DNA of 64,000 bases from positions 8,067,172 through 8,131,171 of the forward strand of contig CM041201.1 of NCBI GenBank assembly GCA_023078555.1. The letters run 5' to 3'. The notes under the pieces were generated by a model. The model saw only the letters and a list, made by a program, of their open reading frames with translations, ran no database searches and had not been told where the DNA came from. The position numbers and the translations under genes are program-made. This DNA is from Ulva prolifera (Eukaryota > Chlorophyta > Ulvophyceae > Ulvales > Ulvaceae). The first letter of the stretch is position 1, and each line of letters opens with the position of its first letter. Positions 27,636 through 53,000 of this stretch are shown piece after piece.

Positions 27636-30470
27636 GCGCCACCGCTGCCGGCCGCGCTGCGGCGCGTCCGCCCGGACGGCTGACACGCCGCTCACGCACG
27701 CCACCACAGCTCCCCTTGCAGGGCTGCCTGGGAAGTGCGGAGGCTGAGATGCGTGGTTGCCCATGGCGTTGTAGCTGCAGCTCCGGCCATGGTTGCCGCT
27801 CCACTTCCAGCACGCGGCGCTGCGCTGCAATCCGTTGCGCCGGTGGGTGGTGCAGGCTGCCAGTGCGTGCATGCTGTTGCACCCGGGACAAGACGCGCAT
27901 TCCACCTGGCCCTCAAGCACGCGGACAGCCTGCAGGCAGCGGGTGGCGTGGTGCTGTTGATTCGACACGTGTTGTGGTGCTGACAACGCAGTGTAGCTTG
28001 GTGCCTGCCGTGGAGGCGTTGGCATGCGGCAGCAGCTCCACCGGTACTGCGCCGTGTGGGGGAGGACACTGTCAGGTCTCATGACGGTCATTGAGGCGAT
28101 CCCGCGGCAGCTCAGCTCTTGTGTCCTGCGGCAGATGTGTGCTAGGTGGCCGTTGGCGGCGTGGCTGCCATGGCAGCACGACGTACCGAGCTTGCTGCTA
28201 GCTGCGGAGAGTATATTGGGCGGCTGCCGCTCATGGGGTGTGACTGGTGGTTGTGCAGGGGCGCCCGAGGTTAGCGTCGATGCGATCCATGTACCTTGCG
28301 GACATTGGCAGAAGCACGCTCGCGGCAGGCTGCTTTGATGTAGACAGCTCTCGGTGTTGTGAATCAGGTGTTGTTGGTATGACCAAAGTGGAAAGGGCGA
28401 TGAGTTGTGCCCATGCATGTGGTCCGGCTGATGTGTTGTGGCTTGGCAGAGGGATGGCCGAAGGCGCGGTGGTGTGCAAGTAACTTGTCATGCTGTGATT
28501 CCATCCAGTGCACGCCAGATGTGCTGTCTTGTTGCATCCGACTTGGGCACCAGCCTCTCGTGCACAAGCCAAGCAGACCGCTGGTACTTGCAGGCTGGTA
28601 TGCACGCCACAGCCATCTAGCACCCTGATACGACACTGCCCACGAACTCAGTGTAAGGGTGCCATCGGTTGTAGCCTGGCAGAGAGGTCAGCGGCCTGAT
28701 GCGTCGAGCATGCAAGGCGGTGTCTGCAAGGGGGTATCGGTGAGCGGTGCGAGCTCGGCCCTAGGTGCGTTACGCCGCTTCGCCCGCTTCGCGTGCGCAA
28801 CAGTGGCCCAGCACACGGCACCGTACAGCTGTTGCAGTCTCAAGCGCCCTCGTGATCGACCTTGTGTGCAACAAAGACTGCGGAGCAAGGGGAGGTGGGG
28901 CAGTCTGCTTGGCCTTGAGCTGCGGCATGCCAACTGGCGTGCGGCATGTGGACGCTCGCAGATGGAGTCGTGTAGGTGCTCGCATTTAAAGGCCTGCAAG
29001 AGCCCACCAGGTGGACTGTGAGGTGACACAGGTGGACAGGTCCTGTGACTGTCGGCTGCTACGGCCGCCAGCAGCTACACCGCTGGAGTGCACAGCATGG
29101 CGGCGTTGCCGTCCGTGTGCAGGCCAAAACGACACCAGCTCCGGTGTGTTTGGTCCTGAGTTCGTGCGGTCATCACGCTCCCCTCCGCAGTTGCTGGAGC
29201 TGCTGCTGCTGCTGCTGTTCCTGCGCTGGCACTGCAGGACGCCCGAACGCAGATTGCAGAGGCGGCCTGGGCAGCCCCCTGCAGGTTGTACTCCTGGTCC
29301 GCCGCTGCCGTACGTGTGCCAGTGCTGCATGAGGTGCCGGGGCAGGGAGCATCTACTAGGCATATGTGGTCCCGTTAACTTGGAGTTGTCAATGTCCAAT
29401 AGGATATGGCTCAGTAAATTTAGATTTACTTTACTTTTACTAGACTATAGCACACTGCAATCACAAGCGCCCGGCAGGCTTGCTGCAGTCTGAGCTGTGG
29501 TCCATGCCGGTGACCTCACGGGGTGCTGCAGCCTATGCATTGCTAAGGCGATCATGGAGCTCAGGCAGGCACCACTTTCCTTCTGTCCGGACGACCTGCT
29601 GTGCTGATCTGGCATGCAATGGCCATGCCACTGTGGATTGTGTGGTGCGGTTGTGTACAGGGGTCCCAGATGAGTCACACCCACAGGGGGTCCCAATGAG
29701 CAGCTAGCACACTTGGACGAACCATGGTTGAGGTGAAAGCTCCCACTGATCTCGAAATGCACTGGACACGCCCAAAACTTGGAAGTGAAGGTTGATTGCT
29801 CACTCAGAGGTGGGCCAGAAAGGCCAGAAGCGTGGACGTCGCCGGCGTCTGCGAAGCGAGGAGGGAAGCCGGCAGTGTAAGCGGTTGAGAAGGCCCCGCG
29901 AAACCGGCGTTCGAAATTGGGCCATTGTTTGTAATTTTCAGACAAAATGCAATCAATTTGCCACATCTTTCGCTGGAGATATGGGAAATGGTCGGTATAT
30001 CCAAGGTTTTGTACGTGCCGGAGGGCACGTCACGTTGAGATTCCACGTATCGAGCTCACAAAGCTATTGGTGACCGCAAATGGTATCTTGAGATAATTTT
30101 CGCTAGGCAATCGCCGGTGTTGAACACGCAGTTTCGCCGCGCCGGCCAAGCTGGGATGAAGCCGGTCGCAGCGCTCAGAGGCGTGGACGTCGACGGCAAG
30201 GCTACAAAGTGTGTGTCTGCTGCTTTGGCTTTACGCTTAAAGCCTCGAGCCTGTTCCGGTCTTATCGTATCGGATGTCCGCGCGACTGCGTCTATATCGA
30301 CAGAGTTTTGAAACGATGGTGTCGACCGGAAACGCCAGCCACCATCTTCATGGCTGGGGACGAGCTGACTTGTTGGTCGGTTGACCTGGCCTTACAACTC
30401 ACTTCAGATCCGTGGATTATTGCGGTCCAGGTATGGCTGATTATGGATGCTTACCCGACACGTTTTGCAG
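27636..30470. other. intergenic; upstream region of PDI-C copy A
   Basis: No gene is supported. Long minus-strand frames (up to 302 codons, 27510-28418) run antisense to the dioxygenase 3' exon and continue into high-G+C DNA; their composition is not protein-like. A CTG-repeat run (GCTGCTGCTGCTGCTG) lies near 29203. One short interspersed repeat lies at 29361-29440. The missing first exon of PDI-C copy A, carrying its start codon, should lie in the last few hundred bases, but I could not identify it. Confidence 0.4.
29361..29440 (+). repeat. ~80-bp short interspersed repeat, member 1
   Basis: It runs from CATATGTGGTCCCGTTAACT through GTTGTCAATGTCCAATAGG to a tail of TTTAC units. Four other members lie in the window: 32981-33060 (minus), 36782-36853, 50647-50729 and 55260-55331. 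The T-rich, unit-repeat tail recalls a short retroposon. No terminal inverted repeats are seen. Confidence 0.8.
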
Positions 30471-31582
30471 GGAGGTTGGTGCACGAGAGAGCGTGACCTC
30501 ACGCTCCTCTGGCGCAGTTGTGGCGACAATCATTTGGTTATTCCTTATCGTTCCTGCTGTGCTGGTGTATATTTTGGTGCAGCCAGGCCGCGATCATGGC
30601 CCGGCAATCCTGTCGAGCAGCGCCCCATGGCTGGTCAGACTCTCGTCTTTCTTTCATCCCGGCTCCAGTGAGCGATCGCAACCCACAGCATCTGCAGATG
30701 CGCATACATCTGACTCGCTTCGTATCAATTTCAACATCAGGTACGTACAATCATCCAGTCACTGCACGCTGTCAACATGGATGCTCCATTCCCCGACACT
30801 ACCGCCTTTCCTGCATCGAACGCGCTCAGCCTCACCGGTGACATTGAGCGCATTCAGTGCCTTGTAGCTTACGGCTGGATCCAGTTGGGTAGCAAGTTCC
30901 TAGCTGTGACTTTGCAATCACCTGGGTCTGCCTGTTCCTGCATGTGCATGTGCATCACTGCTCAAGGCTCTCGTTCCCTGCAGCTTCACCAAGATGTCAT
31001 GCGAGCACATCACATTGGATGCCAGTGACTCCCTCGGGCTGGTGCGCCTCTCCTCGTCCCTGCCAGTGTCTCGAACACCACTCTGCCTCTCCTGTTCAGA
31101 CTATGCCATGCCCTGAGCCCACTTTGCCACAGCATCTGTGTTGCCACACTCGACACGGGGTCGCCATGCCAGTGCCAGGGACAACTTGTGCCACATAGTG
31201 GCGCATGAGCCAACACCGGCCAACGCCTGTGCTGCAGCGCACGCCCCCGGCTTGCCACGGCCAGGGGAATGGGTGCCATTGCAGTGCCGCCCACGCCTGG
31301 CGGCCGCATGCATGCACAGCCCTCCGCACTCCGGCACGCACACACCCCTGCACATGCATGAATGCACGGCCGCTTCGCTGGCACGCGGCAGCAACCCACG
31401 GCTGTGTGCGACTCCAGCAGCACTCTCCTCGTGCCCACCGGCAAGTCTGCTGCGTCCCAAACTTCCGTGAGTGTCACCTGCAGGAGGAACTCCACCTCAG
31501 CAAGACCCCGCTCACCACAGATCCTGAGCCCGTGCCTGTCTCGGCTCAGAGTGGGGGCTTGCGGGAGCCGGAGCGTGGAGCC
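30471..31582 (+). other. copy A exons 1-3: anchor and ERGIC N-terminal domain
   Basis: Exon 30471-30740 (270 nt) encodes a hydrophobic helix, ATIIWLFLIVPAVLVYILV, then a luminal stretch ending LRINFNI. Exon 30984-31041 continues SFTKMSCEHITLDASDSLGL, and exon 31484-31582 gives EELHLSKTPL plus a Pro/Glu-rich linker ending PERGA. The series 'INFNIS-F-x-x-(L/M)-S-C-E-x-x-x-(L/V)-D-x-S-D-x-L-G' followed by 'xLxLxKT' is the signature of ERGIC_N in ERV/ERGIC proteins and PDI-C. The reading frame enters exon 1 with one base completing an upstream codon, so at least one 5' exon with the start codon is missing. The equivalents in copy B (48710-48991, 49258-49315 and 49975-50073) show the same splice phases but strongly different sequence in the first two exons. 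Confidence 0.82.
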
Positions 31583-34500
31583 GTGCGCGCCCCCACCTTG
31601 TTGCGCACATGCATGACGCACATCCCGGGCACGCCTGTGTCGAAACATCGGTCGGGGTGGGGGCAGATGCCTGGGGACAAGCGGCGCGGCACTGAAGCAA
31701 GCTGGGCCGTGAGTCAACGCTTGCCGCCCTCACCATTCTGGCCATTTTAATGCATGCTTGCTCCGTGGGTTTCTGCGCATCGGGGGCAGCTCGTGTGCGT
31801 GCTGTGTGCTGTGAGGTAGCTGAAGAGGCATTTGCTGTGCAGCATGGCGCCATCGTGCCAGCAAACACCAACTTCACGGCGCCGATGACCGCCGCGCAGT
31901 TCCGGGCCGCGCAGCGCCGATACCCCCTCCTCCTGGTGCGCCTCCCCTGCACGCCACCACCAGGCCTGGCTCCCCCCGCCCCCTCTCTCTGCTGCGCGCG
32001 AGGCGGCGGGGTGTGCCTCCGTGTGTGCCATGCATGCCGCAGCCGGAGCAGCTGCGCGCTCTGTAGGAGCTGCTGCGTACCCTCAGCTGTCGACACGGCT
32101 CACGGCCTCCCGCCCATTCCAACCCCCGCACCCCCACCACCCGGCATTCACAACTGCAGCTGCCCTGTTTGGAGCTTCTCGCCGACAGCTTGTCCTTGCG
32201 GCCCGCACAGCTGTGGATCACTGTCCGCCCCGGAACAAAGCGCGCTCGAGCTGTGCCTGTGCAGGTCAACTTTTGTGCGTCTTGGGCGCCGTATTGCAAG
32301 GCCATGGCCCCTGCATGGGAGGCACTGATGCAGTATGCGCGCAAAGCGTACCCGGCCTCAGAGGGCCGCATCCTCGTCAGCAAAGTCGACTGCATCACCG
32401 AGCCGGTGCGCGGCCCACCCCTGCGTCCCTAGCCATGCATCAGGCGCATGCATTATGCCGCCGGGCTTGTTCCTCTGTGGGCGGTTGCAGCTGCTCGGCA
32501 GCGCCGGCGAGGGGCTGATGTCTCGCCTTCAGGGTTTCACGCCGCGGTCAGTGCAGGATCTGTGCGTGGACGAGGCGATCACAGGGTACCCTTCGGCGCG
32601 CATCTACCGCAACGGCTCTGACAAGCTCGCGACCCCCTTAGGCAACCGGCGGGAGCAATACAGTGGCGACCGCACGTACGAGGTGCTCAAGGACTTTGTT
32701 GATGATCTGGTGTCCTCCACCGGCCCCGCACCCGCCCACACGGTGCGCCTTGTTTTGCTGTGTGCCAACACATGCTCCTTCGCGTACGATGGTGGTACCG
32801 GGGACTGGGCCGAGCTGTTGCTGGGCCATGATCCAGCTGCGACGCCCACCTGCTCAGCCGGTCACGCACCCTTCCTGCTGTGATTTGCATCATTCAGTGG
32901 ACATCTGCCTGCGCACCCACTTGCATGGCCGAACTCAACTTGCAGCCGATCGATGTCACAATGGTTCCCAGGAAGCCCACATGTAAAGTAAAAGTAAATC
33001 TGAATTTACCGAGCCTTGTCCTATTGGACAGTGACAACTCCGAGTCAACGGGACCACATGTGGGCAAATCCATCTGAGTAATTTGCATGCGCTATGCAGC
33101 AGGAAAAGCAAGCTAGCGTCATGGACGGTTCTGTCCCGAGCGCCGAGCCCGGGGTGGTGGGCGCCCTTCACCGCGAGGAGGATGCCGCTTCGCTGCCGCA
33201 GCGTGATGTAGAGGTGCCTCCCCCCCTACCACACTGGTGATCGACATGGCGCATAGCAGTGCTGAGTCGTACACAAACTTGCTAGGGGCCGTTCAGCGGG
33301 AGCAGCGAGGGGCTGGCATGATGGCGGCAGGGTCTCAGGCGGCGGTTGGTGCAGGCTCTGAGCAAGGAGGAGGCGATCGTACGGATGCCTCCAGTGCACG
33401 TCTACCGCGACGGCTCACACAAAGCCGCTGCCGTCAGGGACGACACGCATGAGCTGTACTACAACGACGAGCTCACGTACTACAACGACGAGCTCACGGT
33501 GCCCTCCACCGGCCCCGCTCCCACCCACACGGTGCGCCATTCCGCGTGCCGGCAAACGCTCCTCTGTCTCCGATGGAGCCACTGGCTGCAGCCTCCGCGG
33601 CCGCCGACCCTGCAGGGCTTGCCAAGCCTAGCCCGCATGCATTCAGTGAGCAACCCCAAGTGTCTTGTGGGTCAACACGCCATAGCTCCCAGACCGTCGA
33701 CGCCGCGTGTCAGGCCTGGGTTGGAGTGACAATCATCCCAAACACAGGCCAGGGATTCGTGCAGCAGAGGGCATGGATCTACTGGCCCAACGCAGCCGCC
33801 AGGCCAGCAGGCATAGCCTGCGCTGTGTGCTGCGGTGCCATGTCAGCTAATGTGTGCGTTTGATGCATGTAGGACATGCGTGCGGAGCCCCGCGATACCG
33901 TACTTGTGGCAGATGAAGATGCCGACGCGAGAGCCGCGGTGGCTGCGGACAAGACACTCCCGGCGACAGCACATGACAACGTGCGCCCCTTTGATCCCGT
34001 GCTTGTCAGCTATGATACAGTTACCTTGGTCAAGATCACGTAGTACTGGGGGCCCGTAACGGTGTCTGTGTGCACCTACGCCACATCACGTGGCTTAAGC
34101 CAACATCACCCGCACCATCGCGCGGCGCATGAGTTGCGGAGCCACTGCGCCTGCCTCGAAGAAGGCCTCTGTGCTGTGCTGTGCTGTGCTGTGAGGGAGG
34201 TCAAGTGCCGTGTGCTGTGCAGTCTGAAGACGTCACGTCGCTGAGTGCCGAGGAGTATGCTGAGCCGATGACTGCCGAGGAGTTCTGGGCGGCGCAGCAG
34301 GAGCACCCCCTCCTCATGGTGCGCCCGCTCCCACTCCCCGTCGGCCGCTTCCATATCCCATCAGCGTCTGGTGGACTCCTGCTTGAATCTGCACTGCAGC
34401 GGCATGATCCCCCGCACATCCCCGCCCTGTCGCCAGCGGGGCTGCACAAGCATCGCCGCTTCCGGGCCGTAAAGCGCCGATCTCTTCACAGACTTCGTGC

Positions 34501-37500
34501 AAGCGCCTCGAATCTTCGACTTCGACTTCATGACTGTCCGCACGACTTCATGACTGTCCGCACGCAGGGCCCCTGCTTGTGCACACCCCCCTCCCGGCCC
34601 AAACGCGCCGATTCTTTCACACACATTGCGCCAAAACCTTTTACTCTTATTCCCCGCACAAGCACGCAGGGCCCTGCCTGTGCACAGTCATGAATCACAG
34701 CCGCTCAGGGCCTTGCATGACAGAGCACCACAGCGAGCGCGCTGCCAGACACTGCAGCCTGAAGCACACCTGTCTCGGGAGATCCTCACCCGCTGCTCCA
34801 TGCGCCGGCGAGTCGCACACAAGCTGCGGGCGCTATGCGCGACAGCAGCTCCATGCGTGCAGGTCAACTTCTACGCTCCGTGGTGCCCGAACTGCAACCG
34901 GCTGGCCCCGGCGTGGGAGGCCCTGATGGAGCATGCACGCACAACGTACCCTGCTGCCACAGACGGCCGCGTCCGTGTCGCCCGGGTGGACTGCGCCGCC
35001 GAGCAGGTGCGGAGCCGCCCCGACCCCGCCGCTGCTGCGTGCGCTGCGCTGCGCTGTGCTGTGTGGCGCCACCCCTGTGATGTCACCAGCACTCTCTGCA
35101 CATTGCTCTTGGGGGCAGAGTTTCCGCTGGCCGTGCCCTCCCCTGGAGCTGCACCCGACATGTTGAGTGTACTACGGCCTTCGGCATGTTCGGCATGAAT
35201 CAGATGCGCTGTGGCGGGGTGTGGGTGGGTGTTCCGGAGCAACGCAGGTGGGCCGCACGGCGTCACATCACGATACCGTGCAGGAGCTATGCAAGGAGGA
35301 GGCGGTCACAGGGTACGCGACGATGCGCCTCTACCGCCGCGACTCGCGCGGCCACAAGTACGTGTCATACGGGGGAGGCCGCACAGAGGAGGAGCTCACA
35401 GGGTTCCTCGACACCTACGTGAGCGCGAGCCTCCCGGGGCCACCTCAGCCCTCGGAAGTATGTGCCCCCTCCTTCCCGGCAGGCAACACCTTCCGTTTGG
35501 GTCGGAATAACGGTTTTCAAACACCCGTTTTCAACGGAACCCATTGAGGCTACTGTACGCAAGGCTGTCTCAGAATATGTTGTGGTGCCTGCCTTACCGT
35601 GTTCTGATGTTCAAGCAGAAGCTCGTTTCCCTGGAACACATCGAAAGTACCTCCAACTGCTGATGCTTTTCTCCGGTGCACCTCCAGCCGTCCTCTACAG
35701 AGCCGCATGTAGTGGCGCATCGCCGTCGGCGCTATTGTGCCACCTCTAGCCACATGGGCCGAGCGCGTGCCATCTGTTCCCCTGCTTGGTATCTGCGGGG
35801 CGGCGGAGCTTCAGACATATGTTGCGTGTACTCTCAACCGGCCGTGGGCCGTTGGGCGTGCATCCGCACACGGCCGACCCGGCGCGGCAGCCCACCCAGC
35901 GTGCTGCGAAGCAGCTGAAGAGGCGCGTGCTGTGCAGTTTGAAGCTGCGAAGGTAGCGAGAACAAAGTACGCCGCGCTGCTGACCCCCGCGCAGTTCCGG
36001 GCCGCGCAGCAGAGGTACCCCCTCCTCGTGGTGCGCCTCCCCCACCCCCTGGCATCACTCAGTGTTCCACCTGGTAGTTCCCCCTGGTATTCACACCGCC
36101 AACACGTTTTGCTGGTGAATGCATTGCTGTGCCCGCAGCAGTGGTGTCGCCTACGCCACTGGCCGCACCTGTGCAGGTCAACTTCTACGCCGCCTGGTGC
36201 CCCTGGTCCAAGAAACTCCTGCCGAAGTGGATGGAGGTGATGGAGTATGCGCGCACGATGTACCCTACTGCCACCGACGGCCGCATCCGCGTCGCCCGCG
36301 TCGACTGCACCGTTGACGATGTGGTGGACGACGTGCGCGCCTCCACCCTCCTTGCAGCCCCGCACTGTGCTGTGTGCTGTGTGCTGTGCTGTGGACGTGT
36401 CGGCCCTGCTGACGTCGACCACCGTAGCCGCGCAGCCTGTGCGGCGGTGGCGGTACCCATGCATGGGGCATATGCCTGACGACGCTCGCGCTCGCGGCGG
36501 CCAGCCGGGGCTCTGCACCCTGAGGCCATGACCTGTGTGCAGGACCTATGCTCGCGCGAGGTGATCACCGGGTTCCCGTCGGTGCGCATCTACCGCAACG
36601 GCTCGGATGAGTATCAGGAGGGTGCGTTCAGGAGGCATGAGCAGTACCGGGGCGACCGCACGGTGGAGGCGCTCACAGCGTTCATCGACGGCCTCGTGCC
36701 CTCCGCCGGCCCGCCACCCGAGCAGACGGTGCGCCCCAGTGCAGCCTGCGGCCCCTGATGGTGGCGGCTCATGCGCACTACCTGTGGCCCCGTTAACTCG
36801 GAGTTGTCAATGCCCAATAGGGTATTGCTCAGTTTAGGTTTACTTTAATTTACCTGTGCCGGCGACATTAGCGCGCAGCGTGACGTTTACGATGTGTGCA
36901 GCTGCAGCAGCAGCAGATCCGCCTGCGCGAGATCCCGGCGAGGGCGGACCTAGTATCCATGGGGAGCCTCCTTCGCGGCCTGAAGTCTGCGGAGCTGAAG
37001 GACCACAAAGTGCGCCATCCCCTGCCCCTCTTGCGGTTAGTCAGCACACTCGCCCCTATAGCCCGGTCCCTTCCTCAAACGGGCCGGCATCTACCCCCCT
37101 CCCCCACCCACATCCCTTTACGCTCGCAATGCGAACTCATGCACACAGCTTGTATTGCTCAAGAGTGCCTGAATTGCATGGCATGTTGACTGATGAGGTG
37201 CGTGGCGTGTAGGTCGAAGCGGACCTTCCGGCACACGCTGAATATGCAGCTCCGATGACGGCGGAGCAGTTCCGGGAGGCGCAGCGCGCGTACCCCCTCC
37301 TCGTGGTGCGGGCCCGGCTGCTCTTCCTGACCCGCGCCTGCCCCCTCCCCCTCTGGCACACCCGCACCCACTCGATGCCTCATGCATGCCGTATGCGACT
37401 GCAGTCACCGCCTGATTGCCTTGCACCTTGCAGCCCCGCCCGAGCACGCTTTCGGCACAGTTCCGTCGAGCCCCGGCGCGGGCCGGCCGGCCGGCCGCGC

Positions 37501-40500
37501 GCACTCATGCATGCACATACACAGTCAGCTGCCATAGCAGCCGACGAGGCACCTGGGCTCCGCAGCGAGCCCATTCGCGACGGCAGTCCCAGAGGCGATG
37601 GAATCGCTGCTGGCGCGTTTGGGTCCCTCGATCAACGCCGCTGCTCCGCATGAGGCCCTTGCTCCCCCCAGCTGGCGGAGCGCCCTCTGCGGGACACACA
37701 GGCCGCCCTGTGACTTACTCGCCGGCCCCAGGAGTGAGCCCCATCGCTCGTGCCACATGTGCAGGTCAACTTCGACGTGCCATGGTGCCCGAGTTGCCGG
37801 AAGATGGCCCCAAAGTGGGAGGCTGTAATGGAGCATGCACACGCGGCCTACCCCGCCTCCGACGGCCGCATCCGCGTCGGCAGGGTTAACTGCACTGCCG
37901 AGTATGTGTGCAACCTCCGCCCCCTCCCTTTTGCCAGCTGCATATCTCGATGATCATGAGGGCCCCGTTTCGCCAAGCTCCTTACGCTGCCCTCCGTGTG
38001 TGCTGCGCTGTGCTGTCCTCTGAACTCCGCCATTGCTTCGCCATGCTGGCCATCACTGTAGCTCCACGTCCTGTGGACGGAAAACCCCATTACGCGGCAA
38101 CGGCGGCCACAATGCATGGGGCTCATGCGATCGTGTAGTGCATGCGCCGCGTGCAGGCTCTGTGCGAGGCGGAGCAGATCACAGGGTATCCATCGATTCG
38201 TGTCTACCGCGACGGCTCAGACGACATCTTGGTGCGGGGCAGCTACCACGGGCATGAGATGTACAGGGGTGCCCGCACGTATAAGGCACTCAAGGCGTTT
38301 GTCGACGGCCTCGTCACACCGGCCGGTGCCGAACCCACCAAGGACGACGGCATGGTGCGACCCCAGAGAACAGAAGAGCCATGCATGCATCAGCGCTGCC
38401 CCCCCCTCTATACCGATGCCGCGTGAGTGTGGCGTGAACGCGGCGGCACTGCATGCAGGCGATGCATGTGGCAAACGAGGGGGCCATGGTCTCTGAGGGT
38501 TCAGGCGACCGCTTTGCAGGGCAGGAGGGCGAGCACGTACGCTCTCTCAGACCCTGTTGATCACCTTCATGAGACCCTTTTAGTCACCCTGGCCCGCCCT
38601 TGCGCCTGCGCCATGGCACATTCCCTCCGGCGTCTGTGCCTCTCTGACCGCCTCTCTCGCGTGGCGTGATGCGCATCGTAGCATATGTCGCGCCGTACCT
38701 TCGGTCTAGTGGCTGAGCAGCCGCGTGCTACGCAGGTTGAGCAGGACGAGCCGGAATCCGCCGACTACTCCGCGCCCATGACTGCCGCCCAGTTCCACGC
38801 CGCTCGGCAACGGCACCCCTTCCTCATGGTGCGAGTCCCCTGTAGCCACGCTTGCTCTCCCACCCCTCGCCCCCCCCCTTCCCCCCCCGCACGTACCACC
38901 ACTCTTTCACAGTCAACCAGAAGTACTGTGCATGGATCCACCCCGATGGCTGCCACAGCTCAGGCCGCCGCCGACTATGCCCGCAATCATGACGGACACG
39001 CACAAGCAGCGGCCATGGATCCAGCTCGTTTCACAGGCGACGGCTCTCGCTCTCGTCCCCGGCCGCGGAGCGCAGACAAGATCTGCACACTGCATGCATC
39101 TCACCGTCCTGCACCAGTGTAGCGTGCCGACGATGACGTCTGTGTAGGTCAACTTCTTCGCGCCGTGGACCCCATGGCAGGAGCTGTACCCTATCTGGGA
39201 GGCCGCGATGCTGCACACGCGCACACACCCCCTCAACACGGACGGCCGCGTTCGCGTCGCCCACGTCGACTGCTCCGTCGATATGGTGTGCCGCCCCGCC
39301 GATTCCCCCCGGCTCCCGCCTGTGCCACACGCTGTGTGGCGGGCGCCTTGCGTTGCATACCCCCCGCCACAATTGGGCGGCCTAGGGTGGACCCTGAGGC
39401 TGAGGCTGCGAGATAGTGCAGGCCTTTTGCAAGGGGCAGAAGGTGACACACTTCCCGTGGGTCCGCACGTACCGCGACGGCGTGGAAGACGTCATGGTGG
39501 AGGGCGAGCGCCACGTCAGTGACACGTACCAGGGAGACGACATCGAGGGCGAGCTCAAGGCCCTTGTCGACAAGGTCTTGCGACTGTCTGCACGGACACC
39601 GCTCAGTCAACCTAGGCTCTCTGCACCCCACTCTGCAGGCTCCGCACTGGACCGCGTCAGCTTGTTTGTGTCATTCACGTACCGCGGCAGCATGGTGCGC
39701 CCCTGTAGGCCTCAATGCATGTCGACAGTGGGCCGCCGCCTGCAGCACACCCCGCAGCCACCCGCCGCGCCGAAGCCAGGGTCATGCTCCTGGTCCTTAT
39801 GCAGGCAATGCATGTGGAGCTGTACGAGGGCGCGCGTGTGGGGGAAGAGGAGGCCACGGCGGCTGCGGCCATGCGTGAACGGTTCCCAGCGTCGCCACGC
39901 CAGCCCGTGCGCGCCCCACCCGCCTGATCCGCTCCCCTGTATCCCGATGCTACCTCCGCTGTTCACCCCTGAGCCGCAGCACACGAGTGCTGCGGCTCAC
40001 CATCTGAGTGTTGTACGCCACAATTTCATGTAGCCCGGCAGAAGTGTCTGCGGCGCGGCGCGCGCTGTGTGCTGTGGAGTAGATGAATAGGCCCGCGCTG
40101 TGCAGGCCAAAGACGACTTGCTCGGCGCGAACTACTCCGCGCCGATGACCGCCGCGCAGTTCCGGGCCGCGCAGCGCCGGCACCCCCTCCTGCTGGTGCG
40201 GCTCTCCTGAATCAGACGCGTGCCTTCGAAACGTCCCGCCCCACCCCCTGCCTGCCACGACGCAGGCCACCTCGGGAATGCGTGGTAGTCGCGCTGAACT
40301 GCACACGCCAGGGCGGCTGACATGCGATGCCTACGCGTGTGAGGTGAAACGTTTGCTGGAGGATGCTAGTCGCACGACGATCTCGGGCCGACGTCACTAC
40401 CTTCCGGCTTTGCCAAAGGGCATCAGACGTCTGCGTGAATCAAGCAGTATACGTGCATAGCGCATGTGCATGAGGCCCATGCGGTGTGTTGCACATCAAC

Positions 40501-41924
40501 TCGAATGTCATAAAGAAAAGCGGAATCTTGCCAGCAGTCAGCGGGCGTGAGCGGCTCGACAGCCCCATGCAAGACCGCAAATCGCGAGGCGACCCAGGTT
40601 GACTCTTCTTTGGTCTGTGCCTTTTCGACAACATTCTCATCACGTCTGTGCAGGTCAACTTCTACGCCGCCTGGTGCCCCTTTTCCCAGAAGCTCCTCCC
40701 AGAATGGATGGCAGTCATGGAGCACGCGCGCACGGCGTACGCCGACGGCCGCGTCCGCGTCGCCCGGGTTGACTGCGCCATCGAGTCCTCCAAGGTGCGC
40801 GACCCCATGGCCACCAAACGCGCCGTGTGCTGTGCGCCGTGGGCTGTGTGCTGTGCTCCAAATGCCCAAGTCCGACAAGAACTCTGAGAACTGCTCGGCG
40901 CGTGTCGATTGCACTGCACGGCGCCGATGCGGGCCCCCATCTACTCATCCATGCATGAGCCACATGCATCATGCCTCCCACATCCACGCGGTTGTGGCCA
41001 GGCTGCTCGGTGCTGGCCCGGGGCTGGGAACGAGCGGAGTGTGCAGGAGCTGTGCAATGAGCAGAGGATCGCCGCGTTCCCGACGATACGCGTCTACCGC
41101 GACGGCTCGGACGACATCATCGTGGGCGGGAACCACGTGCGCCACAGAAACTTGTACAAGGGTGACCGCACAGAGGCGGCGCTCACGGCGTTCGTCGACG
41201 ACCTCGCGCGCGATGCACACCCCACTCCCACTCCCGAGACGAAGCCGCCGCGGCGACCCCGGCAAGGCTGCATGGTAGCGCTCTCTTGCAGCGTCCGCGA
41301 ATGACACTGCAGCCCTGCTGCATCCCCACACGCATGTGTTCATGCACTGCTGCCGTATCTGCTGCACCGGGGCTTCTGCTGCACCGGCAGGCGCATTCTG
41401 CACAATATGCCCCAGGCCCCAACTGCAACGGGCTGCAGCTGCGTGTGATACGATTCCCACTACGACCACCACGGCCTTTCAGCGGCTGTTTAGCATGGCT
41501 CACAGCCAGCTGCACATCGCCAGGTTTACAGACGCCTCACCACGCTGTGGCGGTGCAGGTGGCGAGCCACGTCATCACCAAGAGAGCACCCGGCACGCTG
41601 TCCTTCCACATGCGCCACGACGGCGCCGTCGCCCCCGCGAGCCCTGACACCGACGTCTCCCACCGCGTCCACCACCTCACCTTTGGGCCCCCCGCCGCGG
41701 TGGAGGGCACCGGTGACAGCCACCGCGACAGCCTCGCGGACGCTGCCTTTGCCGGCCCACACCCAAACATGACGCATGAGCACACCCTACGGCTCACAGC
41801 GGTGGCCCCCAATGCTATCGTGGCGGCACCAGGCGCGTATGAGTACACGGTGGAGTCGCGCAGCTACGTGGAGGATCCGGGGGCCCTGCCGGCGGCCAGA
41901 TTTACGGTGCAGCTGCCGGGATAA
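30471..41924 (+). CDS. six-module PDI-C (thioredoxin/ERV fusion), copy A
   Basis: About 28 exons join in frame to roughly 1,396 residues (first exon missing). Order: membrane anchor and ERGIC N domain; thioredoxin module 1; linker, orphan half-module, linker; modules 2-6 with linkers after 3, 4 and 5; COPII-coated-ERV C domain. Plant PDI-C proteins (PDIL5-3/5-4 type) have the same end domains but one thioredoxin domain. They are ER or early-secretory membrane proteins of the ERV41/ERV46 relationship, thought to pair cargo handling with thiol-disulfide exchange. The single hydrophobic helix near the N-terminus predicts a type II protein with all modules luminal. From exon 3 on, introns are phase 0, with donors mostly GTGCGN and acceptors GCAG/GTAG. 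No frameshift or stop breaks any exon. Alternative: exon 33873-34028 could read on to a TAG at 34041-34043, splitting the locus into two genes. Confidence 0.78.
31843..32742 (+). other. copy A thioredoxin module 1 (APYC site)
   Basis: Exon a 31843-31935 (FTAPMTAAQFRAAQRRYPLL), exon b 32265-32405 and exon c 32557-32742, all phase 0. Exon b reads VNFCASWAPYCKAMAPAW. The usual CxxC is APYC, with the nucleophilic first cysteine replaced by alanine, so it cannot act as a normal dithiol oxidoreductase. Exon c keeps the cis-proline position (GYPSARIYRNG) and the terminal helix (FVDDLV). A stray cysteine precedes the site (NFC). It may act in substrate binding or hold a mixed disulfide poorly. Confidence 0.8.
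32981..33060 (-). repeat. ~80-bp short interspersed repeat, member 2 (copy A only)
   Basis: This is a reverse-orientation member, with TTTAC units as GTAAAGTAAAAGTAAA at its left end, lying in the intron after module 1 of copy A. The matching position in copy B (near 51533) has only an uninterrupted CCACATGTGGGC. In copy A, CACATG lies on both sides of the insert, which suggests a target duplication of about 6 bp. So this insertion postdates the separation of the two copies. Confidence 0.8.
33100..34028 (+). other. copy A orphan half-module and linkers
   Basis: Exon 33100-33213 is an acidic linker (QEKQASV ... LPQRDVE). Exon 33355-33531 is a c-type thioredoxin exon (SKEEAIVRMPPVHVYRDGS), ending in the same VPSTGPAPTHT as module 1 exon c (SSTGPAPAHT). 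It has no a or b partner, so it lacks any CxxC. A 21-bp in-frame tandem duplication (Tyr-Tyr-Asn-Asp-Glu-Leu-Thr) is present at 33457-33498; copy B is six bases shorter in this exon. Exon 33873-34028 is an acidic, Ala-rich linker ending VSYDTVTL. Its donor (GTCAAG) is unlike the others. Without splicing it would end VKIT-stop, giving an alternative gene end. Confidence 0.62.
34223..35457 (+). other. copy A thioredoxin module 2 (CPNC site)
   Basis: Exons a 34223-34318, b 34863-35006 and c 35284-35457, phase 0. Exon b has a complete dithiol motif in PWCPNCNRLAPAW, so this is one of only two redox-complete modules. However, exon c reads GYATMRLYRR: the cis-proline that thioredoxin folds place beside the active site is replaced by alanine, which normally alters substrate release and metal binding. 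The donor of exon c is GTATGT rather than GTGCGN. The intron that follows holds an A+T-rich stretch (about 35480-35640) that differs more between the copies than neighbouring DNA. Confidence 0.8.
35938..36728 (+). other. copy A thioredoxin module 3 (CPWS site)
   Basis: Exons a 35938-36030, b 36177-36332 and c 36543-36728. The site is AAWCPWSKKLLPKW, a single-cysteine CxxS form. From family knowledge, plant PDI-C proteins often have C-x-W-S/C here, so this module may be closest to the ancestral one. A CxxS site can trap mixed disulfides or isomerise but not oxidise. The cis-proline is kept (GFPSVRIYRNG), as is the family hallmark HEQYRGDRT. Exon b runs five residues longer than in the other modules (VVDD before GTGCGC). 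Confidence 0.8.
36782..36853 (+). repeat. ~75-bp short interspersed repeat, member 3
   Basis: It lies in the intron between module 3 and the linker exon at 36902. The same insertion is present at 55260-55331 in copy B, so it predates the duplication. It starts TGTGGCCCCGTTAACTCGG and ends in TTTACTTTAATTTAC. Confidence 0.8.
36902..38536 (+). other. copy A linker, thioredoxin module 4 (CPSC site), linker
   Basis: Linker exon 36902-37009 (LQQQQIRLREIPARADL, ending LKDHK) is Gln/Leu-rich and possibly helical. Module 4: a 37213-37305, b 37765-37905, c 38157-38354. Exon b reads VPWCPSCRKMAPKW (CPNC in copy B), and exon c keeps cis-proline (GYPSIRVYRDG). It is the only module with both a full dithiol and cis-proline, making it the best candidate for real oxidoreductase activity. 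Linker exon 38459-38536 (AMHVANEGAMVSEG...) follows. The a-b intron here has about 147 bp (around 37552-37698) that copy B lacks. Exon b ends AEY in this copy, against AEQ in copy B and in module 2. Confidence 0.8.
38736..39906 (+). other. copy A thioredoxin module 5 (TPWQ site) and linker
   Basis: Exons a 38736-38828, b 39148-39285 and c 39422-39694, then linker 39805-39906. Exon b reads APWTPWQELYPIW: both active-site cysteines are gone (Thr and Gln), so the module is redox-dead. Exon c keeps proline (HFPWVRTYRDG) but runs 25-30 residues past the usual end, into a Ser/Pro-rich tail ending TYRGSM. A shorter form using a GTCTTG donor is possible. The linker (AMHVELYEGARVGEEEA...) shares its AMHV start with the linker after module 4, so linker exons were duplicated too. 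Confidence 0.74.
40106..41274 (+). other. copy A thioredoxin module 6 (CPFS site)
   Basis: Exons a 40106-40195, b 40654-40794 and c 41047-41274. The site is AAWCPFSQKLLPEW, a single-cysteine CxxS form like module 3. Exon c keeps the cis-proline (AFPTIRVYRDGSDD) and ends in a Pro/Arg-rich tail (PETKPPRRPRQGCM) leading to the C-terminal domain; its donor is GTAGCG. The a-b intron is about 80-90 bp longer than in copy B. Confidence 0.8.
41559..41924 (+). other. copy A last exon: COPII-coated ERV C-terminal domain
   Basis: The acceptor GGTGCAG is followed by 121 codons and TAA. Motifs: APGTLSFHMRHD, DVSHRVHHLTFGPP, LADAAFAGPHPN, EYTVESRSYVEDPGALPAARF. These match the pattern of the ERV/PDI-C C domain ('GxxxxSxHS ... 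(N/D)xSHxxxHLSFG ... YEYTxxS ... PxAxFxFxLSP'). Family members usually continue into a second membrane helix after this strand. Here the frame stops four residues after FTVQ, so no C-terminal helix is visible, unless GTGCAG inside the last codons serves as a donor to an unseen exon. Confidence 0.82.
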
Positions 41925-43640
41925 GCGCAGCTTCCGGAGCAAGCGCAGCAGCGTCCCCGCTAGATGCCCAGCGTGATCAGCCTTACAAAGGCAGGCCTGT
42001 GCGGGCAACTGCATGGTGACCGCCAGCAGTGAGGGCTTCTGCAAGTGAGCGACGTCGTCGTGATAGCGGCTCGTGGCATAGACCGTGCGATCTATCCGCA
42101 CTGAGGACCAACCCAGTGTGGTGCGACACCCTGGCGGTTGAGGCGTGCGTCAGGCCATGCCATGCAGGGAGAGCATGGAGATCGTGTGCCCCATGCCCTC
42201 AAGCGGCAAGCGTGGCCGCGCTGCCGAGGTGGCCACGCTGGGGGGAGGGTGCCTGCCGCTTACGCTCCGCTCGGGGCACGTTGTTGCCCGCGCAAGCCGT
42301 TCGGACAGATGACGTTCAGACGCATTTGCGTCGCGTGATGGGTCGGCAATTACACAGCTGCTCCGCTTGCGCACGTTCAGTACACAACGGTTTATCATGC
42401 ATACAGTCTGCTGTGTGGACACATGGCCTCTTTGATCCCGCGTGATTGCTTTTCCTTTTTTTCACTTTTCCTAGTTTCAGCAGGGGTTTCGGGCCTGGAC
42501 AGCACGGCTGCCTGCCGTCTGTTACCAATGCTGCAAGCACACTGGCAGTGCAGTTCTGTGTGTATCGTGGCGGCATCGCTACGCGACTGTGGTGCCGGCA
42601 TCCATAGATTTTGTTTGAGGCAAGCATGGACCGGGCTGCAGCAAGTGCTCTCGTGCGGCTGCGGGCTCTGTTACTGACTGTAATCGCTTGAACCGCTGTC
42701 GAGAGTCTTGATAGGCTCCAATGGCGGCAGGTTGAGGTGAAATGGCATCAAACAGCAGAATTGCTCTCACGGCAGCCGGGACGCAGCCGGGACGCAACGG
42801 GGCTTGAAAAAACAAAACTGTGGGGAGTCCACCAGGGACAGTCTCATGTTGGCAGCTGTCATCGGCATGCACCATATCGCCCGTGTCTCCTCAGCCTGGT
42901 TTGTGTGTGAAAGCTGTACTCCAGGCTGCAGGTAACATGTGAGATGCGGATTGGCAGCCTGTACCGCACCTCTGTGCTGGTGGAAAAGCTCGTAGACGCT
43001 GACAGCGAATGGCCACACGTATTCATTGCTCGAGGTGTCGTCACTCTGAAGTTGGCGAGGTGTTTGGTGCTTGCGGGCTCGAGGCTGAGCATATGAGTAT
43101 GGCACTGGCAGTTACCTCAGGCTGCCTCTGGGATCATCTCTGCAGCCCACACAAGCGCTCCTACATGATCATGCCCCAGACTGTGGCTTGTCGCCGAGCG
43201 TTGGACAACTAATCATTGATTTGTTGATTGACTGCAGGCAGTCTCGCGTGCACAAAGGCCAGGGTCAGGCAACCAGTGTGTCTCTCGCTGGCACTGGTGT
43301 AGCTAGAACTGCTGCACATGACCTCTGTTGGCACGCGGAGGCAGTGTGATGAGAGCATCGATATGCATGCCCTGTATCTGTGGGTTCTGCAACCAGATCA
43401 GCTGACTGCGACGAACAGCATTGAACGATTCATTGAGTCATTGATTGAGTGTGACTTTGACTGCGAAGCAGCTACTTGTAGAAACGTAAACGATGTGAAG
43501 CGGAACAACCTGATTCCAGTTTGGAACATACGATCGATCATGTCACCACACTTGGTGATTAGGCGATAATTCAGGATCGATGTACTGTGAAGAGCGGCCC
43601 TGACCATATCAAAGTCAACTAGGCCACCCGCTCGTTACGG
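41925..43640. other. duplicated 3' flank; no gene supported
   Basis: This repeats at 60144-61866. Both copies keep an 83-codon frame (43318-43569 here), but nearly all of its differences between copies change the amino acid, so it does not behave as a conserved protein. Another short frame near 42948-43100 (MRIGSLYRTSVLVEKLVDAD...) is broken in copy B by a small insertion. Confidence 0.5.
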
Positions 43641-47519: not shown

Positions 47520-48709
47520 ACAACACAACCGCCAACACCACAACGCCTGCCGCCGTACGACAGGGCCGCGCCCAACACACTGCTGCCTGAGGCCGCCCAT
47601 CATGGCCGCCCGATCGCCGGGGGCCGCCCGATCGCCGGCCCACGCCGCACCGCACCCAGGACAATGCATCGCCCAAGCCGTCTCCGCAATCCCTGCACAT
47701 GCCAACGAAGGCACCCCGCACGCCCATCGGACCTGGCCCAGCTCAGCTCAGGCTGGCTGGTCCAGCTAGCTGGAGGCAGAGGCCATCGGTTGGTGGCGTC
47801 ACGCGGGCGGGGCTCCGGAGGGGCACCCCACCGCTCAGGTCGGATGGCCTGCAAGCTGCGAGAGGTCACCGGACGAGCATGACACCTTGTCATTGACAAG
47901 CACGACGTGCTCGTACCCATGCGTGCCGACAGTCGGCACTGCCGACTCACCTTCGACAGGGGCGCTGGTCGTCTAAGCGCTTTCGGTCATTCGAATTCAC
48001 GCCCTGCTAACGTTGAAACAGTGCACGGCAGGCGGTGAGTTGTAACACATGACACACAGCATGCTGTGTTTGTCTGAATCCGTTCACTCGTCTGGAACAC
48101 AAACACGCAGCATCGGTGCTGGCGCGCTGCCACGCGCGCAGGATACCGGTAGGCGCGGAGTAGCCGGTGTCGGACGCGTCGGATGCCTGCGGAAGAGCAG
48201 TCAACGAGAAGCTCACGTTGATCACTGTATGTGGTCACAAAGGACAGAGGTCGGGCATGAAGCCGTTTCTCGGAAACCACTCGCAACCCCACTCACACAG
48301 TTAAAGCACGAAGGCGCTTATACCAACACACGACACACCTGTTTCGTAAGTGATTCAATATACTTATAGGTTCCCAGGACCGCACTCGAGATAGCTACAG
48401 GGATTCACCGGCGCCGCTCTGACAAGCTCTAATCAGAGCGGGGAGCTTGACAATGAGGTCGACCCGACAGCGAGAAGACGTGGAAGTTTGCCAGAAGTAC
48501 GCAGCGTATGCCTCGAGCGCGCTACAGCACTGTAGCTAGCCTCGCGGTATCACTCAGCCTGCCGATTTGTCCCAGCGCTGCTTTCGAGGGGCGCTACTCG
48601 AGCCCACATGCAACGAAGTTCAGACTTATGCCCAGTACTGCATTCTTCCTGTGGTATTATCATGTCTTTTTGTATGTATTGCTGATCCCGAGCTGCTGCG
48701 CGCCTGCAG
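47520..48709. other. intergenic; upstream of PDI-C copy B
   Basis: No gene is supported. A short tandem duplication of GGCCGCCCGATCGCCGG lies near 47607-47640, and a GTGCCGACAGTCGGCACTGCCGAC palindrome-like cluster near 47925-47945. The missing first exon of PDI-C copy B should lie near the right end. Confidence 0.4.
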
Positions 48710-50073
48710 GCACGTCGACGCGGTACGTGCACGCAAAGACGCGACATCTACACGCTCCACTGTTACCGTCGCGGTGACTATTGTCCTGATATTCCTTGTT
48801 ATTCCATCTGGCCTCGTGTATATTCTCTTGTCGCCTGGGCATGATCCTTTCCCCGCGAATCTGGAGCTGCCCAGGTGGGTCCAGATTTCACTCTCTTCTT
48901 CCTCGCCTCTGGAGACGCACGACGGTCAGCCATTTACAGATGCTGCTGATTCGTATTCATCTGGTCTCTTACAAATAAATTTCAACATCAGGTGTGGACA
49001 CGATGATGCACCTAGACAGCCAGTTGCTGCCATGACGGATCGACCTGTAGCCCCACCTGCCGCTATCGTCAGCATCGTGCATTTACTTTGAAAATTGACG
49101 TTGCTATCTCGAGATAGTAGCATGCCCAAACTGTCGGCATGACTGTCTCCTCGCCGTGGTCAGCCATATCTCCACGCGTCGAGCAGACAGATGCCCTGCT
49201 AGCCACGTAACAGTCAATGCAAAGGCACATTCCTGATCACATCCGCTGTGGTTGCAGCTTCACAGAGATGACATGTGAGCACGTGAAACTTGATGTCAGT
49301 GACTCTCTTGGGCTGGTGCGTCTTCCGTTGTCCCTGATATAGCGTGTACAGTGTATGGTGCTATCCTGCACATCAATAAGCAGCACCTAAGCGTGTCTTC
49401 ACACAGTTCATCCCCAGTGGTCCAGCATCCTTGTAGCATGTGTCCACCCATGGGGTGCCCTCGTCTGGAACACATAGATGAGCACTATACGATGTGCACA
49501 AAGCTCAGTGAAGGAGCAGCTGCATCACTGGATTCGATTCAAGTACAACGTTGCCCCAATGTTTTAAATTGGATCCGCATCTCAAGCCAGAGGCCTGCCA
49601 GTATGCAGAGAGAGGTCACGGTGTTGCCACAGCTGACAGAAAGTCAATGCTTGTGCTGCGTTCTTGTCTACCCTCCGTGCACCGTACCGCGTAATACTGG
49701 ACCGCGTGAGGAGTCCCCAACTCCTGATCCCCCATCTATGGTCATCCTGAATGCATGGCCTGCCATTTCAGTGCCGCCCACGCTTGGCGGCCGCATGCAT
49801 GCACATGCACAGACCCTCCGCACTCCGGCCCGCACACGCCCCTGCACATGCATGCATGCACGGCCCCGTCGCTGGCACACAGCGACCCACGGCTGTGTGC
49901 GACTCCAGCAGCACTCTCCGCGTGCCCACCGACAGCTCTGCTCCGTCCCAAACTCTTGTGAGCGTCACCTGCAGGAGGAACTCCACCTCAGCAAGACCCC
50001 TCTCACCACAGAGCCGGAGCCCATGCCTGTCTCGGCTCAGAGTGGGGGCTTGCAGGAGCCGGAGCGTGGAGCC
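48710..50073 (+). other. copy B exons 1-3: anchor and ERGIC N-terminal domain
   Basis: Exon 48710-48991 encodes TVTVAVTIVLIFLVIPSGL, then VYILLSPGHD, and ends LLQINFNI. Exon 49258-49315 adds SFTEMTCEHVKLDVSDSLGL, and exon 49975-50073 adds EELHLSKTPL and a linker. Phases match copy A exactly. Residues just before the helix (RARKDATSTRST) occupy the place of the 'RKVPxDLTxxT' segment that precedes the anchor in ERGIC/PDI-C proteins. The third exon is nearly identical to that of copy A, while the first two are only about half identical in protein by eye, marking the edge of the homogenised region within intron 2. Confidence 0.82.
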
Positions 50074-53000
50074 GTGCGTGCCCCGACGTTGTTGCGCAAA
50101 TGCATGACGCGCATCCCGGCCATCTCTGTGTCGAAACATCGGTTGGGGTACGGTCAGGTGCCTGGGGACAAGCGGCGCGGCACTGAAGCAAGCTGGGCCG
50201 TGTGTGAATGCTTGCCGCCCTCACCATTCCGGCCATTTTAATGCGTGCTTGCTCCGTGGGTTTCTGCGTATCGGGGGCAGCTTGTGTGCGTGCTGTGTGC
50301 TGTGAGGTAGCTGAAGAGGCATTTGCTGTGCAGCATGGCGCCATCGTGCCAGCAAACACCAACTCCACGGCGCCGATGACCGCCACACAGTTCCGGGCCG
50401 CACAGCGCCGATACCCCCTCCTCCTGGTGCGCCTCCCCTGCAGGCCGCTACCAGGCCTGGCTCCCCCCGCCCCCTCTCTCTGCTGTGCGCGAGGCGGCGG
50501 GGTGTGCCTCCGTGTGTGCCATGCATGCCACAGGCAGAGCAGCTGCGCTCTCTGTAGGAGCGGCTGCGTACGCTCAGCTGTCGACACGGCTCACGGCCTC
50601 CCGACCATTCCAACCCCCGCACCCCCACCACCCGGCATTCACAACTCGGCATATGTGGTCCCGTTAATTCGGAGTTGTCAATGTCCAATAGGATACGGCT
50701 CAGTAAATTCAGATTTACTTTACTTTACTGCAGCTGCCCTGTTTGGAGCTTCTCGTCGACAGCTTGTCCTTGCGGCCTGCACAGATGTGGATCACTGTCC
50801 GCCCCGGAAGAAAGCGCGCTCGCGCTGTGCCTGTGCAGGTCAACTTCTGTGCGCCTTGGGCACCGTATTGCAAGGCCATGGCCCCTGCATGGGAGGCACT
50901 GATGCAGTATGCGCGCAAAGCGTACCCGGCCTCAGAGGGCCGCATCCTCGTCAGCACATTCGACTGCATCACCAAGCCGGTGCGCGGCCCATCCCGGCGC
51001 CCCTAGCCATGCATCAGGCGCATGCATCATGCCGCAGGGCTTGTTCCTCTGGGGGCGGTCGCAGCTGCTCGGCAGCGCCGGCGACGGACTGATGCCACGC
51101 CTTCAGGGTTTTACGCCGTGGTCAGTGCAGGATCTGTGCGTGGACGAGGCGATCACAGGGTACCCTTCGGTGCGCATCTACCGCAACGGCTCAGACAAGC
51201 CCGCGACCCCCTCAGGCCACCAGCATGAGCATTACAGTGGCGATCGCACGTACGAGGTGCTCAAGGACTTTGTTGATGATCTGGTGTCCTCCACCGGCCC
51301 CGCACCCGTACACGCGGTGCGCTTTGTTCTGCTGTGTGCCAATACATGCTCCTTCGCGTTCGATGGTGGTACCGGGGACTGGGCCGAGCTGTTGCTGGGG
51401 CATGATCCACCTGCGACGTCCACCGGCTCAGCCGGTCGCGCATCCTTCCTGTTGTGATTTGCATCATTCAGTGGACATCCTTTTGCATGGCCGAACTCGA
51501 CTTGCAGCCGATCGATGCGGTCACAACGGCGCCACATGTGGGCAACTCCATCTGAGTCATTTGCACGCGCTATGCAGCAGGAAAAGCAAGCTAGCGTCAT
51601 GGACAGTTCTGCCCCGAACGCCGAGCCCCGGGTGATGGGCGCCCTTGACCGCGAGGAGGATGCCGCTTCGCTGCCGCAGCGTGATGTAGAGGTGCCTCCC
51701 CCCCCAACCCCTGACCCCTGCCACACTGGCGATCGACATGGCGCATCGCAGTGCTGAGTCGCACACAAACTTGCTAGGGGCCGCTCAGCGGGAGCAGCGA
51801 GGGGCTGGCATCATGGCGGCAGAGTCTCAGGCGGCAGTCGGTGCAGGGTCTGAGCAAGGAGGCGGCGATCAGACGGATGCCTCCAGGGCGCGTCGACCGC
51901 GACGGCTCACACAAAGCCGCTGCCAGGGACGACACGCATGAGCTGTACTACAACGACATGCTCACGTACTACGACGAGCTCACGGTGCCCTCCACCGGCC
52001 CCGCTCCCACCCACACGGTGCGCCATTCCGCGTGCCGGCAAACGCTCCTCTGTCTCCGATGGAGCCACTGGCTGCAGCCTCCGCGGCCGCCGACCCTGCA
52101 GGGCTTGCCAAGCCTAGCCCGCATGCATTCAGTGAGCAACCCCAAGTGTCTTGTGGGTCAACACGCCATAGCTCCCAGACCGTCGACGCCGCGTGTCAGG
52201 CCTGGGTTGGAGTGACAATCATCCCAAACACAGGCCAGGGATTCGTGCAGCAGAGGGCATGGATCTACTGGCCCAACGCAGCCGCCAGGCCAGCAGGCAT
52301 AGCCTGCGCTGTGTGCTGCGGTGCCATGTCAGCTAATGTGTGCGTTTGATGCATGTAGGACATGCGTGCGGAGCCCCGCGATACCGTACTTGTGGCAGAT
52401 GAAGATGCCGACGCGAGAGCCGCGGTGGCTGCGGACAAGACACTCCCGGCGACAGCACATGACAACGTGCGCCCCTTTGATCCCGTGCTAGTCAGCTATG
52501 ATACAGTTACCTTGGTCAAGATCACGTAGTACTGGGGGCCCGTAACGGTGTCTGTGTGCACCTACGCCACATCACGTGGCTTAAGCCAACATCACCCGCA
52601 CCATCGCGCGGCGCATGAGTTGCGGAGCCACTGCGCCTGCCTCGAAGAAGGCCTCTGTGCTGTGCTGTGCTGTGCTGTGAGGGAGGGCAAGTGCCGTGTG
52701 CTGTGCAGTCTGAAGACGTCACGTCGCTGAGTGCCGAGGAGTATGCTGAGCCGATGACCGCCGAGGAGTTCCGGGCGGCGCAGCAGGAGCACCCCCTCCT
52801 CATGGTGCGCCCGCTCCCGCTCCCCGTCGGCCGCTTCCAAATCCCATCAGCGTCTGGTGGACTCCTGCTTGAATCTGCACTGCAGCGGCGTGATCCCCCG
52901 CACATCCCCGCCCTGGCGCCAGCGGGGCTGCACAAGCATCGCCGCTTCCGGGCCGTAAAGCGCCGATCTCTTCACAGACTTCGTGCAAGCGCCTCGAATC

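Follow-up and report, generated by a model that had tools for sequence, protein, structure and literature searches.

A stretch of 64,000 nucleotides from the green alga Ulva prolifera (C6:8067172-8131171 of the assembly searched, which comprises 88.9 Mb in 44 contigs; hereafter the window) contains two copies of a gene in which the thioredoxin cassette of PDI-C occurs six times in tandem. PDI-C is a plant and algal hybrid of protein disulfide isomerase (PDI) and Erv41-Erv46, represented in Arabidopsis by PDI7, 12, and 13. The six-module architecture is well supported and we regard the gene as very probably real; its function we infer, and a role in thiol exchange and trapping is put forward tentatively. 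Overall, we lean toward viewing the product as a PDI-C-derived protein of the endoplasmic reticulum (ER) that has a single membrane span and carries a multivalent thiol exchange-and-trap chain.

Results

Gene model of copy 1

Copy 1 (30156-41924, + strand; Table 1) served to choose the gene model; its 29 exons, joined at GT-AG sites, give one open frame of 1,398 residues, in line with the protein of about 1,400 residues that an initial annotation of the window had predicted. Frame 0 of the joined coding sequence contains the final stop only, while the other two frames contain 24 and 34 stops. All 28 introns have GT-AG ends, with GTGCG as the donor in 20 and TGCAG as the acceptor in 24. Introns 1 and 2 are in phase 2, and the remaining 26 are in phase 0. 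From its N terminus, the encoded protein has a short tail, a membrane span, the remainder of the ERGIC_N region, six three-exon cassettes (a, b, and c), and a luminal C domain. Each cassette lies on the plus strand and, as had been claimed, in phase 0, and in the model a linker exon, d, is present at four of the five module junctions, the junction of modules 2 and 3 having none.

Pfam detected six Thioredoxin stretches in copy 1 (277.6 bits; E = 4.3e-84) and ERGIC_N at residues 86-127 (30.0 bits; cut-off, 27). The thioredoxin modules lie between ERGIC_N and the Erv C domain, as in PDI-C. The third family named in the domain search proposed with the annotation, COPIIcoated_ERV, gave no score in copy 1 at an E value of 1 or less. 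The annotated gene extent, 30471 to 41924, was correct at its end, but the gene begins one exon earlier. Exon E1 at 30156 was taken as the start because the phase-2 junction is thereby kept, as in all three copies of the gene described below; a start at 30444 (ATG GAT GCT frame) was rejected, being out of frame with E2.

Comparison of the two six-module copies

Copy 2 (48453-60143, + strand) has the same 29-exon plan and encodes 1,400 residues with no internal stops; having played no part in the choice of the model, it serves as an independent test. From E4 to the C exon, 1201 of 1269 aligned residues are identical between the copies, and the underlying aligned blocks (31274-43639 and 49761-61866), which run for about 12 kb from the intron before E4 to past the gene, match at 92-96%. 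In contrast, only 57 of 125 aligned residues (46%) are identical over E1 to E3. Such divergence beside a near-identical remainder points to gene conversion or an exchange of the 5' end; the two proteins carry nearly the same chain but differ in tail and membrane span.

Within the aligned part, the copies differ at 112 of 3,810 exon sites (2.9%) and at 302 of 6,242 intron sites (4.8%). The introns contain 23 insertions or deletions (indels), 16 of which are not multiples of 3. At the intron rate 14 indels would be expected in the exons, compared with two observed (P = 9e-5), each of 3 bp and both in exon c1'. No splice-site base is altered (0 of 100) over 25 alignable introns (P = 0.007). These comparisons also bear on the possibility that assembly falsely repeated one module or one gene, tandem repeats being a common source of assembly errors. 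We consider this extremely unlikely, as the copies differ at the sites counted above and carry different insertions, the modules are only 35-55% identical to each other, and modules 4 and 5 are also found as genomic fragments in another source.

Over 1,269 codons, the overall ratio of nonsynonymous to synonymous substitution rates (dN/dS) was 0.59 (bootstrap, 0.41-0.89). The six modules alone gave 0.40 (888 codons; 40 nonsynonymous and 31 synonymous changes), and the b and c exon classes, with few changes, gave 0.35 each. A further stretch, between modules 1 and 2, consists of d1 and c1' only (33100-33531), without a and b exons, and c1' is 42% identical to c1. By its sequence we read it as the probable remains of a decayed seventh cassette. 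Exons d1, c1', and d2 together show 15 nonsynonymous and 0 synonymous changes between the copies and differ in this from the abc modules (Fisher P = 0.0007; the test was picked once the counts were known). Set against the module dN/dS of 0.40, these counts indicate that the modules, unlike the relic, have been kept. Taken together, the d exons have 13 nonsynonymous and 2 synonymous changes (dN/dS, 2.1); constraint was not detected in them, and they are for that reason the least sure part of the model.

Origin and active sites of the modules

A third gene, copy 3, lies outside the window, 14.7 kb past copy 2 (74843-79211 in window coordinates), and is an ordinary PDI-C: it has one thioredoxin domain, both membrane spans, a GKxx-type tail, and the active site WCPWC. 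Its best database relative among those listed is P0003 (89% identical), which with P0004 makes up the two closest relatives overall; the closest named relatives among those listed are green algae. Copy 3 is taken as 473 residues long because P0003 shows the last large exon starting at MSGF, and a 23-residue N-terminal extension of the copy 3 C exon, which P0003 lacks, was rejected. A genome search with one b exon gave 14 matches: six in each six-module copy, one in copy 3, and a weak one elsewhere (40% identity; E = 2e-4) at C4:2242126-2242254, outside the window, perhaps in another PDI-type gene.

The modules are 43-56% identical to that of copy 3. In an unrooted tree of 39 sequences (143 columns), the twelve modules of copies 1 and 2 form a clade with 91% support, and the addition of copy 3 and P0003 gives a clade with 100% support that leaves P0004 outside. 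Corresponding modules of the two copies pair with each other (100% support for modules 1 to 5 and 99% for module 6), from which it follows that the six modules predate the separation, or the last homogenization, of the copies. The PDI-C origin proposed initially is borne out by the order ERGIC_N, thioredoxin, C domain and by homology to the PDI-C profile and to copy 3.

The active sites of the six modules (Table 1) bring CxxC and CxxS together in one protein of a green-algal lineage. According to PMC4729789, PDI-C has CxxC in all green algae analyzed and CxxS in land plants; the six-module genes, with their CxxS modules, differ from the green-algal PDI-C surveyed there. The same text has CxxC permitting exchange and CxxS permitting isomerization or stable mixed disulfides. 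The mix of sites would fit a mixed exchange-and-trap model and is not proof of it. Module 2 has GYAT at the cis-proline position. Module 5 shows the fewest nonsynonymous changes between the copies (2, with 4 synonymous) despite having no active-site cysteine (Cys), and its exon c5 (39422-39694) has a long tail that sets it apart from the other c exons.

C terminus and membrane topology

Hydropathy analysis found one span in each of copies 1 and 2 (peak at residue 34 and 40, respectively) and two in copy 3, and the N-terminal span is the sole 19-residue peak above 1.4 in the 1,398 residues of copy 1. A product started internally would thus lack a recognizable ER-targeting segment, which would speak against separate genes. 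A second, C-terminal membrane exon was not found near copies 1 and 2, and a genome search for this exon matched copy 3 and, weakly, two other ERV loci and nowhere else. Copies 1 and 2 end in FTVQLPG and lack the C-terminal GKxx tail, whereas copy 3 ends in LGKQG. Against a PDI-C profile built from 120 relatives, the last module and C domain match up to position 469 of 525, the missing end corresponding to the second span. The copy 1 C domain is identical to that of copy 3 at 52 of 121 aligned residues. Judged by these alignments, the six-module C domain is homologous to the PDI-C C domain, yet shortened and divergent. Hence, the COPII-coated-ERV C domain of the initial annotation holds as PDI-C homology and fails as a Pfam match, and the ERV-type cargo-receptor scaffold that it described is only partly kept: with the second span and GKxx tail missing, these are not complete ERV-type receptors.

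The proteins might still act as cargo receptors by pairing with the single-module PDI-C or a different member of the ERV family, whose tail would let them cycle between the ER and Golgi. Most of the luminal Erv region is retained, and the genome offers such partners: besides the single-module gene it has ERV-family loci at C1:7844-7846 kb and C6:4817-4819 kb. By Pfam match span, these two loci look like the ERV-A and ERV-B of PMC4729789. With neither the second span nor GKxx found in either copy, and with the C domain below Pfam detection, we judge this quite unlikely.

Database, transcript, and literature searches

A whole-length search (scoring the 7,992 candidates with the most words in common) returned two DNAJC10-like proteins as its only matches. 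A two-module profile search for spliced fragments (7,996 candidates scored) found no two-module PDI-C among the best 120 of 179 matches, and the best match, P0123, contains one module at 73% query cover. P0089 and P0071 were rejected as two-module PDI-C, since in each one domain is split by an insert, by eye an unspliced intron. Two fragments from another source correspond to the six-module genes: P0140 spans c5, an intron, and d6 and includes the c5 tail, and P0142 comprises c4 and an intron, with 90% identity to the copy 2 c4. As far as their sequences go, they indicate that modules 4 and 5 are present in other sequenced material and do not speak to splicing.

A module profile run on the 238 retrieved proteins (the listed matches, which include PDI-C and many ERp44) found one module in 233, two stretches in the two PDI-C with a split domain, and three to five stretches in three, namely, two DNAJC10-like proteins and one flatworm thioredoxin-domain protein; none of the 238 was another multi-thioredoxin PDI-C. 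Neither was such a protein found in the literature searched, among the matches listed. Within the literature and databases searched, therefore, the six-thioredoxin form is undescribed, as had been supposed. TGTAA motifs were rejected as evidence for internal polyadenylation, being too common (two per six-module gene body).

Several observations weigh against the overall reading given at the outset. No transcript was found, and the whole-length search gave no relative of this type. P0140 and P0142 are genomic, as both read through introns, and in the same database a 473-residue single-module relative is apparently spliced, its contig being 1,786 bp long. Selection is uneven, with dN/dS reaching 0.88 in the a exons and 0.68 in the C exon, and about 0.66 and 0.75 in modules 1 and 3, all from few changes. 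Some d exons may be intronic, and dropping d and c1' would shorten the protein to 1,169 residues. Finally, the order of module origin has 40-76% support (76% for modules 1 and 4, 51% for modules 3 and 6, and 40% for all but module 5). The claim of a single gene stands on the reading frame, on selection, and on the sole strongly hydrophobic segment.

Some of these observations would suit two decaying PDI-C paralogues without a present function, as would the cassette already lost, the missing C-terminal span, and the moderate overall dN/dS. Decay of this kind is nonetheless improbable: alongside the 23 intron indels, neither copy has acquired an internal stop, a frameshift, or a lost splice dinucleotide, and the modules stand at a dN/dS of 0.40. 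A different alternative is that one gene yields variable products. From E3 on, all 26 introns are in phase 0, and the lengths of the internal exons from E4 on are all divisible by 3, so that modules could be skipped in any number to give proteins with one to six thioredoxin domains. This symmetry follows simply from duplication of a phase-0 cassette, and no isoforms were seen, which makes regular skipping a doubtful account.

Features of the window

The exons of both six-module genes are listed in Table 1. A dispersed repeat of about 80 bp occurs in introns of both genes and upstream of copy 1 (29361-29437, 32983-33062, 36783-36853, and 50650-50728). Genome-wide, it gave 1,431 first-look candidates, of which 40 were scored, with at least 41 matches. 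The repeat is partly copy specific, being present in the a1-b1 intron of copy 2 and not of copy 1, with a possible 3-bp duplication of ACT. Another repeat (657 columns; 98.5% identity) occurs at 21537-22193 and at 46869-47519, the latter between the six-module genes. A Pfam scan of ten neighboring open reading frames gave one match at an E value of 0.01 or less, and the reading frame at 26596-27318, upstream of copy 1, matches PCO_ADO (cysteine-oxidase type; 32.2 bits; cut-off, 27).

Table 1. Exons, modules, and linkers of the six-module genes, in window coordinates
Feature	Position	Strand	Remarks
Copy 1 E1, start codon (ATG) and short N-terminal tail	30156..30208 (53 bp)	+	Joined to E2 in phase 2, like E1 of copies 2 and 3
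Copy 1 E2, membrane span (residues 34-52) and stalk	30471..30740	+	Hydropathy peak
Copy 1 E3 (30984-31041) and E4 (31484-31582), rest of ERGIC_N region	30984..31582	+	Pfam ERGIC_N
Module 1: a1 31843-31935, b1 32265-32405, c1 32557-32742	31843..32742	+	Active site WAPYC
Putative seventh-cassette relic: d1 33100-33213, c1' 33355-33531; then linker d2 33873-33980	33100..33980	+	
Module 2: a2 34223-34318, b2 34863-35006, c2 35284-35457	34223..35457	+	Active site WCPNC
Module 3: a3 35938-36030, b3 36177-36332, c3 36543-36728	35938..36728	+	Active site WCPWS
Linker exon d4	36902..37009	+	Open, phase 0, GT-AG in copies 1 and 2
Module 4: a4 37213-37305, b4 37765-37905, c4 38157-38354	37213..38354	+	Active site WCPSC (copy 2, WCPNC)
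Linker exon d5	38459..38536	+	Gene models of copies 1 and 2
Module 5: a5 38736-38828, b5 39148-39285, c5 39422-39694	38736..39694	+	WTPWQ, active-site Cys absent
Linker exon d6	39805..39906	+	Both copies; also in genomic fragment P0140 from another source
Module 6: a6 40106-40195, b6 40654-40794, c6 41047-41274	40106..41274	+	Active site WCPFS
Last exon, luminal Erv C domain, stop at 41922-41924	41559..41924	+	tblastn to copy 3 C domain, E = 1.4e-20
Copy 2 E1 48453-48505, E2 48710-48991, E3 49258-49315	48453..49315	+	ERGIC_N, 34.7 bits (cut-off, 27)
Copy 2 E4 to C, same 26 exons: six modules and relic	49975..60143	+	Homology to copy 1

Discussion

The six-module genes share with PDI-C the order of ERGIC_N, thioredoxin, and Erv C domain, the first conserved luminal Cys (M-S/T-C), and the Cys before the C domain (GCM), and they share their exon layout with the nearby single-module PDI-C gene. 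They differ from PDI-C in having six thioredoxin domains instead of one, one span instead of two, no GKxx, and a C domain below Pfam COPIIcoated_ERV. Since the PDI-C family is defined, in PMC4729789, by a single thioredoxin domain and two spans, the six-module protein is PDI-C derived and not a PDI-C member by that definition.

Other ER proteins with several thioredoxin-like domains can be set beside it. ERdj5/DNAJC10 is soluble and has six such domains; it differs from the six-module genes in having a J domain and no Erv domains, and a Pfam scan of copy 1 gave no J-domain match at an E value of 1 or less. TXNDC5/ERp46, whose structure 8eky is the best solved-structure sequence match to module 4, has three PDI a-type domains in a row, each with CGHC, is soluble, and has no Erv domains. 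ERp44 has a CxxS active site (CRFS) in its one active a-type domain, which is combined with two b-type domains, is soluble, and carries a retrieval tail. It occurs among the two-module-profile matches and among the fold matches of P0003. The six-module protein has two CxxS sites (CPWS and CPFS) among six modules, on a membrane anchor.

The sequences support a history in which a PDI-C gene in the lineage of this alga had its thioredoxin cassette tandemly duplicated inside the gene, giving six modules and a seventh that later decayed, and in which the six-module gene was then copied, or homogenized by gene conversion, to give the present pair near an ordinary PDI-C. The product is predicted to be a type II protein, with one N-terminal span and the whole chain on the far side of the membrane, by homology the ER lumen. 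In the predicted structure of a close single-module PDI-C, the thioredoxin domain sits in a loop of an Erv41-like beta-sandwich. The six-module chain would likewise exit and rejoin the same, here trimmed, sandwich and so form a loop, not a free string. Loss of the second span and GKxx would have ended cargo-receptor cycling, and the protein may now reside permanently in the ER membrane, with a multivalent thiol function.

Along such a chain, modules 2 and 4 (CxxC) would carry out disulfide exchange. ERp44 holds clients in mixed disulfides, and by analogy modules 3 and 6 (CxxS) may do the same. Modules 1 (AxxC) and 5 (no Cys) would serve in binding or spacing without classical catalysis. A more far-reaching idea, which we think unlikely as a complete account, is that a cargo-receptor fold was turned into the holder of an expandable, graded thiol chain of exchange, trap, and silent modules closed on an Erv41-type sandwich. 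Its length would be adjustable by in-phase gain, loss, or skipping of cassettes, and a cycling receptor would thereby have become a fixed, multivalent disulfide trap.

In PDI-C a disulfide enzyme is combined with a cargo-receptor fold, and PMC4729789 describes knowledge of its roles as very limited. The U. prolifera genes represent a natural domain amplification beside an unchanged parent, with a conserved mix of CxxC, CxxS, and Cys-free modules and with the second span lost. They would allow a direct test of PDI-C thioredoxin function apart from two-span cargo cycling and may serve as a naturally occurring set of active-site variants that share one backbone.

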